64,000 nucleotides of DNA from Cytobacillus oceanisediminis (GTDB taxonomy: Bacteria > Bacillota > Bacilli > Bacillales > Cytobacillaceae), in the NCBI RefSeq assembly GCF_022811925.1, contig NZ_CP065511.1, forward strand, positions 1,729,501 to 1,793,500. Reading direction: 5' to 3'. This document shows, piece after piece, positions 34,952 through 63,293 of the stretch. A program made the translations under genes and the position numbers. Below the pieces are notes generated by a model that worked only from the letters and a program-made list of their open reading frames with translations, was not told where the DNA came from and did no database searches. The first letter of the stretch is position 1, and each line of letters opens with the position of its first letter.

Positions 34952-35074
34952 ATGTACGGCTACGGATATGGCGGCTGTGGATACGGTGGAGCCGGATACG
35001 GCGGCGGTTTTGCGCTAATCGTTGTTCTGTTCATCCTGTTGATCATCGTAGGTGCTTCTTGCTTTAAGTGGTAA
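34952..35074 (+). CDS. YjcZ-family sporulation miniprotein (40 residues)
   Basis: It begins [20 protein letters not shown] and continues with the membrane segment [18 protein letters not shown]. The shared core [18 protein letters not shown] shows it is a tandem duplicate of the previous gene. AAGGGAGGGG precedes ATG 34952 at good spacing. Confidence 0.85.
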
Positions 35075-35080
35075 TATATT

Positions 35081-35114
35081 AAAAGAAAAGCAGGGGCAAC
35101 CTGCTTTTCTTTTG
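35081..35114 (+). terminator. Terminator after the YjcZ genes
   Basis: AAAAGAAAAGCAG pairs with CTGCTTTTCTTTT around a short loop. Confidence 0.85.
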
Positions 35115-35160
35115 TATGCATACATACATTTGGATGTGAGTGCCTAAAACCCCGGTCCAT

Positions 35161-35430
35161 TCCGCGCAGAACAGAAGAACATCCGCGCGTAAAGAATCTG
35201 TCTCCGCGTAGAAAGGCGAGAAAAATACGCACAAAATGACGAATACCGCGTACTCAGGCACGTTACGCGCGAAAAGGAATAATATCCACGCGAAAAGAGT
35301 CTGTTTCCGCACAAAAATACAAAAAAGCGCGCGCAAAAGGATATACACCGCGCAAAACAGACAAATATCCGCGCCTAAAAATCCGCCTTCGCGCACAAGA
35401 CCAGAAATCAGCACGCAAACTCGTGTTTCC
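35161..35430. repeat. Degenerate tandem array of about 13 units of about 21 bp (TCCGCGCNNAAA...)
   Basis: Units start at 35161, 35182, 35203, 35226, 35245, 35264, 35285, 35306, 35327, 35347, 35368, 35388 and 35410. Each opens with TCCGCGC or a close variant, followed by an A-rich half; seven of the twelve intervals are exactly 21 bases. The CG-rich blocks stand out from the AT-rich surroundings. There are no unique spacers, so it is not a CRISPR. Open frames on both strands exist only because 21 is a multiple of three. Function is unknown. Confidence 0.8.
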
Positions 35431-35485
35431 TAATAAGCCAAATGGGGAAAAGAAGCAGCATAAACGAAATTGGGAGGTTTGCAAA

Positions 35486-35686
35486 ATGGATGAACTTAAA
35501 ACACAGGATCGGGAAAATACGATGAGGGAAATTTACTCCATATTGGAGGGCGGACTTCAGCGGGAAATGCATAAAGGCGAGTACAAGCTTGTTTCAGAAT
35601 GGGTAAGCGGTTTTAATTTGGAGGAAAGAGCTACGATATTAAATATGCTTAAGGAGCTTACCAACAAGCATATCCGAATTGATTAA
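35486..35686 (+). CDS. Hypothetical helical protein (66 residues)
   Basis: ATG 35486 is chosen because GGGAGG lies 9 bases before it; the frame opens earlier inside the repeat array but has no support there. The product MDELKTQDRENTMREIYSIL with LVSEWVSGFNLEERATILNM is soluble and predicted all-helical. Family not recognised. It lies just after the 21-bp repeat array. Confidence 0.65.
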   Translation: MDELKTQDRENTMREIYSILEGGLQREMHKGEYKLVSEWVSGFNLEERATILNMLKELTNKHIRID

Positions 35687-35733: not shown

Positions 35734-35763
35734 TTGACAATTAAAGCCAGAAGCTTATATACT
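35734..35763 (+). promoter_or_regulatory. Sigma-A promoter of the ABC-F gene
   Basis: TTGACA (35734-35739) and TATACT (35758-35763), spacing 18 bases. A start near 35770 gives a leader of about 255 bases before the ABC-F ATG at 36025. Confidence 0.7.
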
Positions 35764-35769
35764 ACAATC

Positions 35770-36024
35770 AAATAGTTTGAAAGGATGATTAAGGGGCATG
35801 AAGTTATAATCTTATTTTTTCTGGTATCTTTTTTATATTTAAAAAGTTTAACCCGGAGAACATAGGATTTAGTGTGCCTTTTTTAAATCATCCCTTATCG
35901 GAACTGACATCTTTTATATTTGTCTGTAAGCGGATCAAATTTTATTTAGGCGCGCGTTTTTTATGTATTTGCACTATTTCTAATGATGAGTGCACATCCT
36001 CTCCGGGTATGGGGAGGTTTTTTT
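35770..36024 (+). promoter_or_regulatory. Probable attenuating leader of the ABC-F gene
   Basis: The long leader has several possible hairpins. GTGTGCC (35873-35879) can pair with GGCGCGC (35949-35955), which runs into T6. TGCACT pairs with AGTGCA just before the gene. CCTCTCC pairs with GGGGAGG (35998-36017), followed by T7; this last stem buries the ribosome site GGGGAGG. Antibiotic-induced ribosome stalling in such leaders controls several ABC-F genes. No convincing leader peptide was found. Confidence 0.55.
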
Positions 36025-37803
36025 ATGTGTGCAAATAAACGTATACTCAACAATCAGAACAATAATAAACTGCCGATTCTCAAGGCCAGGGATCTTCAAA
36101 AGTCATTCGGTGATAAAGCGGTGTTTTCTAATTTGGACTTCGATATTTATCAGCAGGACAGCATCGGCCTTGTTGGCTTAAATGGCACAGGTAAAACTAC
36201 ATTGGCCAGTATTTTGTTCGGCAGTATTCAAGCGGATAAAGGCACTATCGAGCGGATGAAGGTGCCATGCAGAATTGGCTATCTGCATCAATCAGCAGAT
36301 TATTCTGTCAGTGAAATTCATAATTTTAACCAATCTCCCGATGAAGAGATTCTTCAGCGGGCAAGCAAACTAGGCCTTTCAAAACTCCATGAATGGAAGC
36401 CGGATAGACTTGATTCTTTGAGCGGCGGCGAAAGACTGAAGCTTGCTTTAGCTAAGGTCTGGTCATCAAAACCGGATATGCTGATTTTGGATGAACCTAC
36501 TAATCATTTGGACTTACAGGGCATCGAATGGCTTATTAGCGAAATCAGCAATTTCAGCGGCCCGGTCCTGATTATTTCCCATGACCGTCATTTCCTTGAT
36601 CAGGCTGTCAGAAAAATTTTTGAACTGCAGGAAGGCATCCTCACCATTTATCAGGGGAATTACACAGCCTACCGGGAGCAAAAACAGAAAAACTTTGATG
36701 ATCAGCTTCATCAATTTAATGTTCAGCAGAAAGAGATCGAACGCATTGAAAATCAGATGTCTAATTTAAAAAAATGGTCTGAAAAAGCTCACAGGGAATC
36801 AACTAAAGGCGGAAGTCCTTCTGAGAATAGGCAGATGGGCTTCAAAGAATATCACAGAGTGAAAGCCAAAAAGATGGATCAGCAGATTAAGTCAAAAATG
36901 AAAAGGCTTCAGCAGGAGCTGGATAAAAATAAAGTTGAGAAGCCGGAAGAAGAGGCGAAAGTACATTTTCAATTTGATTCGTCAGGCAAAAGAGGGAAGA
37001 GAATCATTGAAGCTAAAAACCTCTCAAAAAGCTTTGGCGATCGGACTCTTTTCGAGGGTAGCCAATTTTATATCAAGCATGGTGAAAAAATAGGGATTCT
37101 TGGAGCAAACGGGGCAGGCAAGTCTACTTTTATCCGTATGCTTTTGGATGAAGTACCACCTACTGATGGAGAACTTTGGGTCAGCAGTACTTTAAAGATT
37201 GCTTATTTAAACCAGGATGTCAATGATTTGCCCTTAACAAAAAATGCCGTAGAGGCACTTGATCTCACCGATCGGGAGCTGATTTTCAAGGCAAGGACCC
37301 TGTTAGCGAATTTGGGGATGAAGGAACAGAAGTTAAATCAGCCGATTGAACAGCTTAGCATGGGGGAGCGAATTAGGGTCAAACTTACAGACATGCTTTT
37401 AAAGGAATATGACGTGCTTATACTAGATGAACCGACGAATCATTTGGATTTGCCGAGCAGGGAACAATTTGAAAAAACGCTCAATGAATTTTCAGGGACG
37501 CTCATCATTATTTCTCATGATTTATACTTTTTGGAGAAGTTAAGCTCAAGATTACTTGTATTTGAAGAAAATAAAATTACCAGATTTGAAATGGACCTGA
37601 AGGAATATCAGATGAAATCCAGAACTTCCAAGCAGGAAAAAGATCATGACTCCACGAAAGAGCAAATTATGGTTATTGATAACCGCATCAGTGCGATACT
37701 GGGAGAACTCAGTCTGCTTGTTCCGGGTGACGGCAAATATGCGGAATTGGATAAAGAGTTTAATGGCTTAATATCTAAAAAAAGAAATTTATTAAATCAA
37801 TAA
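36025..37803 (+). CDS. ABC-F ATPase, probable ribosomal protection protein
   Basis: About 592 residues from ATG 36025, which has GGGGAGG 8 bases upstream; the frame is open to 35983. It has two ABC domains and no membrane segments: Walker A LVGLNGTGKTTLAS, signature LSGGERLKLALAK and Walker B LILDEPTNHLDL in the first; GANGAGKSTF, LSMGERIRVK and LDEPTNHLDL in the second. A charged linker (about 225-310) lies between them and a C-terminal extension (about 530-592) follows. It likely relieves antibiotic or stalled ribosomes. The leader points to resistance type (Vml/Vga/Lsa-like), but drug range cannot be read. Confidence 0.88.
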   Translation: MCANKRILNNQNNNKLPILKARDLQKSFGDKAVFSNLDFDIYQQDSIGLVGLNGTGKTTLASILFGSIQADKGTIERMKVPCRIGYLHQSADYSVSEIHNFNQSPDEEILQRASKLGLSKLHEWKPDRLDSLSGGERLKLALAKVWSSKPDMLILDEPTNHLDLQGIEWLISEISNFSGPVLIISHDRHFLDQAVRKIFELQEGILTIYQGNYTAYREQKQKNFDDQLHQFNVQQKEIERIENQMSNLKKWSEKAHRESTKGGSPSENRQMGFKEYHRVKAKKMDQQIKSKMKRLQQELDKNKVEKPEEEAKVHFQFDSSGKRGKRIIEAKNLSKSFGDRTLFEGSQFYIKHGEKIGILGANGAGKSTFIRMLLDEVPPTDGELWVSSTLKIAYLNQDVNDLPLTKNAVEALDLTDRELIFKARTLLANLGMKEQKLNQPIEQLSMGERIRVKLTDMLLKEYDVLILDEPTNHLDLPSREQFEKTLNEFSGTLIIISHDLYFLEKLSSRLLVFEENKITRFEMDLKEYQMKSRTSKQEKDHDSTKEQIMVIDNRISAILGELSLLVPGDGKYAELDKEFNGLISKKRNLLNQ

Positions 37804-52018: not shown

Positions 52019-52047
52019 TATAAAAACATTTAGTATGTTTAAGAATA

Positions 52048-52135
52048 TGTTCCCTACGCTGGTATGAGCCAGATCAGGTTCAAAGGGTCAGCATCTTTAA
52101 TGATGAAGTCTCAACCGGCATACCGGTTCCCCTAC
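52048..52135 (-). ncRNA. TPP riboswitch (THI element)
   Basis: On the minus strand the aptamer shows the conserved pieces: GGTTGAGA near the 5' end, GCTGACCCTTTGAACCTGAT, then CTGGCTCATACCAGCGTAGG GAA. It binds thiamine pyrophosphate and, through the downstream terminator, switches the thiYXZ operon off when TPP is plentiful. Confidence 0.95.
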
Positions 52136-52217
52136 ATTTCTTGCTATTTAATTTTGACAGGCATAAATACTTTCCATCATTATTATAGCAAATAATATCA
52201 AAATGGACAGAAAATAA

Positions 52218-63047: not shown

Positions 63048-63293
63048 CAATCAGTGGGGGTTCATCCCCCGCTGATTGTAAGTTGAGGCCCGCAGGATGT
63101 GGGTCACAAAGACGTTGCCACAGGACAAGGAAAGCTACGGCAGCGATACATCGCACGACCGAAAGCGGTAGCTTTTGGGAGGACGTGGCGTTCTTAGTCT
63201 TTGTTCTTCTTTCGGGCCTTTACGGGCAGTTTGACTCCCGCTTACCCTTTTCGGATTGCTATGAGTATTGAAAATGGGAATCTTACTGCCCGT
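63048..63293. other. Highly structured intergenic element of unknown type (RNA or non-autonomous transposon)
   Basis: The gap of about 450 bases before prfC holds several strong stems: 63048-63060 with 63066-63078 (13 bp); 63089-63094 with 63098-63103; 63108-63113 with 63197-63202 enclosing GCCAC/GTGGC (63117-63121 with 63185-63189) and AAAGCTAC/GTAGCTTT (63131-63138 with 63168-63175); and ACGGGCAG/CTGCCCGT (63222-63229 with 63286-63293). Composition is more GC-rich than the surroundings. No supported protein frame is present. It may be a structured RNA or a palindrome-bearing IS200/IS605-derived element. Confidence 0.6.

Follow-up and report, generated by a model that had tools for sequence, protein, structure and literature searches.

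A degenerate 21-base tandem array of Cytobacillus oceanisediminis: probably a decaying member of a repeat family linked to one clade of NERD genes

An intergenic gap of Cytobacillus oceanisediminis holds a degenerate tandem array with a period of 21 bases, which raises the question of what such an array is and whether anything spreads or maintains it. The window analysed here is a stretch of 64,000 nucleotides (assembly GCF_022811925.1, contig NZ_CP065511.1, positions 1,729,501 to 1,793,500 of the forward strand), and the array within it is referred to as the window array (Table 1). The array belongs to a family of tandem arrays that occurs in Cytobacillus-type, Sporosarcina and other Bacillales genomes, and the arrays of this family are intergenic and placed 3' of genes. 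We consider it fairly probable that the window array is a decaying member whose family has as its partner one clade of proteins with a NERD domain, here called NERD-A, and that this clade spreads or maintains the arrays.

The link to NERD genes came from the neighbours of the arrays. Blind clustering of 252 array-flanking proteins gave one large family of 19 proteins, which spans the two Cytobacillus array sets (spelled CCGCGC and CGCAA), the Sporosarcina set and the set f49, with some members located between two arrays. Both of the two proteins scanned from this family matched the Pfam family NERD (PF08378). Since the number of NERD genes per genome ranged from 0 to 12 (47 genomes), the link was tested from the NERD side. 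Forty NERD loci were drawn from the matches listed, omitting loci already known to hold arrays; an array was present at 13 of them and in 3 of 165 background tiles, which came from the flanks of other arrays and totalled 579 kb (Fisher p 4e-8). Reversed sequences near NERD genes were discarded as a control, because reversed arrays remain periodic, and shuffles were used in their place. A further 20 NERD loci from genomes poor in both the CCGCGC and the CGCAA pattern were added, as were the loci returned by the array search. The 93 distinct NERD proteins formed three clades, A, B and X. At a threshold passed by 1% of 370 shuffles, arrays lay at most 900 bases from the gene in 38 of 54 cases in clade A, 1 of 25 in clade B and 0 of 14 in clade X; some 29 clade-A genes scored above the highest shuffle, as did no gene of clades B and X. 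Without the 14 genes derived from array loci, arrays accompanied 24 of 40 clade-A genes and 1 of 39 other NERD genes. The association also held for protein clusters free of array-derived genes, both at 55% identity (arrays in 11 of 13 clade-A clusters and 0 of 16 others, p 2e-6) and at 70% identity (11 of 17 and 1 of 28, p 1e-5). In seven genomes poor in both patterns, 7 of the 16 added clade-A genes had arrays, in other spellings. Because arrays are found so unusually often beside NERD-A genes, the two probably form a repeat-spreading system.

Counting orthologs, a 5' array is present in 28 of the 38 array-bearing clade-A genes, in 27 of these 28 on the strand of the gene, 12–260 bases before its start. 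Arrays on the 3' side accompany 20 of the 38 genes, 12 on the gene's strand and 8 on the opposite one. The sole 5' array scored on the strand opposite its NERD-A gene is that of locus L439 (G142, 2669-2940), a 13-unit array that opens with several identical 21-base units, GCGCGAAGAGTGTGACAGAGT. All 30 NERD-A proteins scanned match PF08378 above the curated cut-off, and no HuH family was present among the 25 listed of their 32 families. Residues Q77, D79, E92 and K94 are invariant in the 30 aligned proteins; we take D79 and E92/K94 to be the D and ExK of the catalytic motif of the PD-(D/E)XK nuclease superfamily. The predicted architecture comprises a PD-(D/E)XK-type nuclease, a zinc ribbon and a helical C-terminus, so that NERD-A differs from the NERD domain at large by its zinc ribbon and extra C-terminal part. 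To the knowledge of the authors of one report (PMC9040797, consulted in part), work on the importance of the NERD domain in bacterial proteins began with SmdA. The open-access literature searched yielded neither a description of these arrays nor a link between NERD and repeats, and the consulted portion of a Bacillus infantis paper (PMC5001198) contains nothing on these arrays.

The window array itself was first proposed in an earlier note made from the letters of the window, as a real, degenerate 21-base array of about 13 units, and its periodicity clearly exceeds the shuffle background. Over positions 35156-35435, the autocorrelation has peaks at lags 21 and 42 (z 4.5 and 5.8, respectively), values that were matched at any of 70 lags by 2 and 0 of 1000 dinucleotide shuffles, respectively. 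Lag 2 is also elevated (z 4.6), because of the CGCG blocks. The 20-22-base spectral signal of the array is the strongest among 911 segments of 280 bases in the window. We count 13 units, with 19-21 bases between consecutive starts, and one further, doubtful unit upstream at 35137 (score 5.1). The note's start position stands and its end, 35430, is a few bases too generous; likewise, the number of units stands, and the exact common start TCCGCGCNNAAA is present in only two of them (35182 and 35368), the remaining 11 having 1-4 mismatches over its 10 fixed positions when counted by eye. Tandem Repeats Finder gave no row at the array, and no Rfam covariance model matched it at the gathering score.

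The array is not unique in its genome, and the proposal that it belongs to a lineage-wide intergenic repeat family proved correct, both in this genome and in its relatives; a tie to NERD genes had not been anticipated there. Searches were made with a sequence-only profile from three units and with exact two- and three-unit patterns. In the genome of 5.58 Mb, they revealed seven further arrays: C1:315047+, 1194083+ (on one weak match, E 0.03), 1580757+ and 3886719-, and the CGCAA-spelled arrays 1152849+, 1660339+ and 2962094-, the reversed CGCAA pattern having no match in this genome. Three more arrays, of other spellings, adjoin NERD genes of this genome. A stricter pattern, CGCGCNNAAA twice, had no match in this genome and was judged too strict. 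Within the genus, the two-unit CCGCGC pattern matched in 12 of 36 genomes (reversed control 0 in all 36) and the CGCAA pattern in 22 (reversed control non-zero in 5). The strict three-unit CCGCGC pattern was present in 4 of the order's 397 genomes, with 104 matches in one; S. luteola MER 47 had 110 pattern matches, with 2 for the reversed control. Among the matches listed were Cytobacillus oceanisediminis, several Sporosarcina and two Planococcus (one of which was not looked at), together with many single, probably chance matches in GC-rich organisms. In a sample of the class, 104 of 398 genomes matched the CGCAA pattern, many by chance (single, coding or simple-repeat matches), and a genome was counted as real only where many matches lay at a single place. 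A CGCAA match at L305 (G018), for example, reads as a collagen-like coding repeat of CCGCAAGGC units and is outside the array family. Carriage of the array by plasmids or viruses was rejected: one plasmid match (E 0.08) and a single match in each of 23 viral contigs were taken as chance. In the Cytobacillus arrays of G015, G017, G019 and G000, five units frequently make up a higher-order repeat of about 102-103 bases. Arrays adjoin the 3' end of an rpsD-like gene, identified by sequence, in members of two different families of the class (L355 of G150 and L360 of G560), and this may possibly be a very old shared array position.

Across the family, the unit consists of a core of about 11 bases, Y-CGC-NN-NN-AAA, and a free spacer of 9-10 bases, with a period of 20-21 bases. 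The core is spelled CCGCGC, CGCAA or otherwise; the spellings CCGCGCATAAA, CCGCAAATAAA and CCGCAACTAAA align as Y-CGC-NN-N-(T/C/A)-AAA, followed by 9-10 free bases. Among 1725 unit-to-unit distances, 21 bases occurred 966 times, 20 bases 369 times and 19 bases 120 times. In 76 arrays with at least six units of modal length, mean diversity was 0.142 at five key core positions and 0.461 in the spacer, and the core was the less diverse in 72 of them. The corresponding values in 132 shuffled arrays were 0.652 and 0.712, with the core lower in 105, which corresponds to a slight anchor bias. Arrays holding N were omitted from the analyses of diversity, orthologs, curvature and spacer sharing. Orthologous arrays differed at 11 of 330 key positions and at 70 of 633 spacer positions, counting only units whose two neighbours were at least 80% identical between species; the species pairs are not independent, and one identical pair contributes 120 + 224 unchanged sites. 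The lemA locus had changes at 2 of 150 key and 39 of 293 spacer positions. The earlier note had suggested selection for phase rather than sequence, and the opposite was observed, namely a core sequence that is conserved across the family. Weakly scoring variant units, GGCCGGTAAA and CGGCYTGTAAA, accompany the NERD-A genes of L478 and L416, suggesting that the universal part of the core is limited to GC and AAA.

The window copy behaves differently from the family. The downstream 66-aa gene served to identify the orthologous gap in 19 of the 36 genus genomes. Read by eye, six of these gaps hold a clear array (G000, G027, G032, G019, G020 and G017), eight contain units that are few or degenerate, and five (G005, G007, G008, G024 and G025) contain none. 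Between this genome and G027, changes affected 15 of 121 core sites, 17 of 106 spacer sites and 19 of 153 flanking sites, and in six other genome pairs the core changed at a rate at least equal to that of the spacer. Core and spacer have thus drifted alike among sister species at this locus, which shows that the window copy is decaying. We read the window array as an old and dispersed family member in decay, probably a relic of the CCGCGC spelling. Neutral evolution, which the earlier note had named as speaking against its proposal, therefore applies to the window copy, with its unconstrained core, and not to the family, with its conserved one.

Dispersed and NERD-linked arrays of the same genome agree in core spelling, in the present genome only in part. 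In 13 genomes with both kinds, the mean core-profile distance between dispersed and linked arrays was below that of all 5000 permutations. As both kinds had been found with the same two patterns, the test was redone on sites outside the patterns and within pattern classes. For eight lineages, the true pairing was then the best of 720, for core and for spacer sites alike, and it was still the best of 720 when every known linked array of those genomes was entered. The 13-genome test and the first eight-lineage version included only linked arrays from the array searches, and the latter version was made without the CCGCGC arrays of this genome; with free pairing that included four of the latter, 2 of 40320 permutations equalled the true pairing. 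The distance between NERD-A proteins correlated with core distance (Mantel r 0.48, 0 of 2000 permutations), a relation that is confounded by descent, and core spelling differed between NERD-A paralogs of one genome. Longer stretches were also shared between loci. At least 80 bp at 85% identity or more were common to 18 of 239 array pairs within a genome (14 in G142, 3 in G004 and 1 in G430, the last being a single array held twice) and to 4 of 2039 pairs between genomes, all at orthologous loci. In this genome, two arrays 1.3 Mb apart have 394 bp in common at 82%; one lies between comZ and a NERD gene, the other at 2962094. Such sharing of spacers shows copying or conversion between loci. The comZ-NERD gap contains CCGCGC units in G017, G019, G027 and G032 and GCGCAA units in this genome, so that one locus can hold different spellings. 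Intact copies of the adjacent NERD gene occur in G017, G019 and G032, and in this genome, G027 and G015 the gene is disrupted by frameshifts or stops; its broken state here, with intact orthologs next to CCGCGC arrays, fits the decay of the window array.

The placement of the arrays was determined with genes called by codon-pair score and with 128 arrays clustered into 88 loci. G150 was omitted from the orientation counts because its unit is nearly palindromic, and L216 (G003), a weak chain within a 472-aa gene, from the context counts. Between co-directional genes, arrays followed the gene strand in 39 cases and the opposite strand in 10 (p 4e-5). Convergent gaps held 28 arrays and divergent gaps 6. 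In the same loci, array-free gaps of at least 100 bases (n=255) were convergent in 21 cases and divergent in 96 (p 7e-12), and array-free gaps of any length in 105 and 130 cases (p 3e-5). If the terminus is opposite dnaA (at C1:246888), eight arrays of this genome, including the window array, are on the leading strand; the array at 2962094 lies only about 50 kb beyond the point opposite dnaA. All arrays placed in G000, G019 and G032 are on the leading strand, except one short array of G019, and one array of G560 and three arrays of G142 beside dnaA are on the lagging strand. The leading strand was considered as the cause of orientation in place of gene direction, and the two are not separable in these data.

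Several other properties were tested. Locking to the helical phase was not supported, as spacing showed none beyond the neighbouring unit, apart from one alignment artefact. A phase residual test was positive mainly in Cytobacillus CCGCGC arrays, where the apparent signal arises because the anchor can shift by two bases within CGCGC (19/23 pairs); a few other arrays were below 0.05 and the Sporosarcina group had no trend. A predicted bend of 125 degrees per 105 bp was obtained for the window array, compared with 79 +- 19 in shuffles (z 2.4, with wedge parameters). Predicted curvature had a mean z of 1.9 in 27 Cytobacillus CCGCGC arrays, about 0 in 12 f49 arrays, 0.5 in 13 CGCAA arrays and 0.4 in 38 arrays of the Sporosarcina group, 7 of which were above 2 and 9 below -1. 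Curvature thus does not appear to be a shared property of the family: the predicted bending, a role suggested in the earlier note, is raised on average in the Cytobacillus CCGCGC arrays and not in the other groups. The predicted RNA structure of the window array is weak (z -1.87; 8 of 200 shuffles were as good). A coding repeat, which that note had also discounted, was rejected since spacings of 19-21 (1725 unit pairs) keep no reading frame. Open frames of 222-384 codons extend across the arrays of L231, L245, L039, L041, L053, L081 and L251, mostly antisense and in L081 sense, and frames of this length carry a risk of unfounded protein annotation.

Regarding mechanism, we infer that NERD-A binds and cuts the arrays. 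NERD-A would recognise the core as its cognate site, and nicking or cutting inside an array, followed by repair through copying, could lengthen it. The same copying repair could seed arrays at other intergenic sites, and old arrays would drift once the partner gene had changed its specificity or died. In its full form, this would be a NERD-nuclease repeat-spreading system of Bacillales, in which each protein has its own spelling of CGC-NN-NN-AAA, an array beside its gene, and arrays seeded and lengthened across the chromosome, the window array being a fossil of an earlier specificity; we put this version forward tentatively, at somewhat less than an even chance. Several observations and controls weigh against these inferences. 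This genome is the worst fit in the spelling comparison, its CCGCGC arrays matching no known linked array, and array size was inconsistent with the intactness of the comZ-linked NERD gene, so that this link was dropped. Three of the 13 array-bearing NERD loci score below the highest shuffle (31.6), and the addA locus differs at 1 of 5 key and 1 of 10 spacer sites. The reversed patterns also find matches: the strict CCGCGC pattern 13 times in G363, one of the 397 genomes of the order, a reversed pattern twice in G430, and the CGCAA pattern in 5 of the 36 genomes of the genus and in many genomes of the class sample (for example, 16 and 18 times in G744). G540, which has high reversed counts, is included among the context loci.

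Four other explanations deserve consideration. The arrays may be operator-like sites of NERD-A, serving autoregulation or as a titration or decoy pool, and dispersed by ordinary recombination and slippage in which the protein has no role. The 5' arrays on the strand of their genes would suit such sites, as would a conserved core with nearly free spacers, which resembles a row of binding sites; however, most dispersed arrays are found 3' of unrelated genes, over half of the array-bearing clade-A genes have 3' arrays, and linked and dispersed arrays agree in core spelling, and we regard this explanation as unlikely. Binding by another host protein, active on DNA or RNA in nucleoid organisation, termination or supercoiling at gene 3' ends, with NERD-A genes tolerating or collecting the arrays, would account for the bias towards the 3' side and direction of genes and for the eight presumed leading-strand arrays of this genome. 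Clades B and X were sampled alike, yet had arrays in only 1 of 39 cases, and differing core spellings between NERD-A paralogs of one genome are unexpected for a single host factor, which makes this account improbable.

We find it highly improbable that the arrays are neutral minisatellites, functionless products of slippage and gene conversion acting on chance sequence. The lack of core constraint in the window copy and the empty gaps in 5 of 19 orthologous loci agree with such an origin, but the retention of the core while spacers randomise, a single core theme in several families of Bacillales and the clade-specific NERD link do not. Almost no weight is given to intrinsically curved DNA, with phased A-tracts as a structural element: the predicted bend of the window array and of the Cytobacillus CCGCGC arrays speaks for it, and the averages of the f49, Sporosarcina-group and CGCAA arrays speak against it. 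A NERD-A clade that spreads or maintains the arrays remains the reading we prefer.

Among known repeats, CRISPR arrays likewise alternate a conserved piece with a variable one. In contrast, the arrays described here have an 11-base core with a 9-10-base spacer and are many and dispersed. They resemble REP/REPIN sequences with their RAYT genes (REPtrons) in being short dispersed intergenic repeats of which a matching type lies beside a dedicated DNA-processing gene, as described in the consulted portions of PMC8266576 and PMC8049555; the repeats studied here likewise occur both next to their NERD-A genes and scattered through intergenic DNA. According to the former source, as far as consulted, REPs are palindromes of 20-50 nt after a tetranucleotide, most often GTAG, and TnpA-REP is an HuH enzyme. 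The present units, in contrast, are direct tandem repeats with a 20-21-base period (YCCGCGCNNAAA plus free spacer), neither palindromic nor tagged with GTAG, and the linked gene is NERD (PF08378) in 30 of 30 cases, not HuH/Y1. As repeat and enzyme are both unrelated to those of REP/RAYT, the arrays and NERD-A are not a member of that system. The TAACTGA repeats of Beggiatoaceae (PMC4679880, consulted in part) are also abundant, intergenic and direct, with only a possible role proposed, but have a 7-base unit and occur in unrelated bacteria, and the consulted portion mentions no link to a nuclease.

At the window locus, the array and both flanking genes are on the plus strand, and the array starts 47 bases 3' of a terminator-like hairpin, which is seen again in orthologous gaps and was not listed by a simple hairpin scan (Table 1). 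Further downstream, at 35734-36030, a promoter-like site (TTGACA-18-TATACT) precedes a leader some 250 bases long, whose terminator-like hairpin (35998-36017) stands directly before a gene resembling an ABC-F ATPase by sequence (no library was run). This leader appears well conserved by eye in orthologous loci, a pattern as for ribosome-mediated attenuation. Rfam matches in the window, on the minus strand, were a Bacillaceae-1 RNA at 63089-63213 and a TPP riboswitch at 52034-52143.

Table 1. Features of the window array and its gap (positions of the window)
Feature	Position	Strand	Remarks
Degenerate 21-base array	35161..35425	+	13 units, core YCCGCGCNNAAA
Unit starts of the array	35161, 35182, 35203, 35224, 35245, 35264, 35285, 35306, 35326, 35347, 35368, 35388, 35408		
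YjcZ-family small-protein gene (PF09680), 5' of array	34952..35074	+	Pfam; on the array's strand
Terminator-like hairpin of the upstream YjcZ-family gene (AAAAGAAAAGCAGG / CCTGCTTTTCTTTT)	35081..35113	+	Read from sequence
Downstream gene, 66 aa, no Pfam match	35486..35686	+	On the array's strand; anchor of the orthologous gap

The association of these arrays with NERD-A gives a dispersed intergenic repeat family a candidate partner, and provides the little-studied NERD domain with a candidate substrate. This clade-specific link gives both the repeats and the NERD domain a testable function. Together they would represent a second case of a gene-linked repeat population resembling RAYT/REPIN, made of unrelated parts, and the natural variation in site spelling offers material for studies of specificity.
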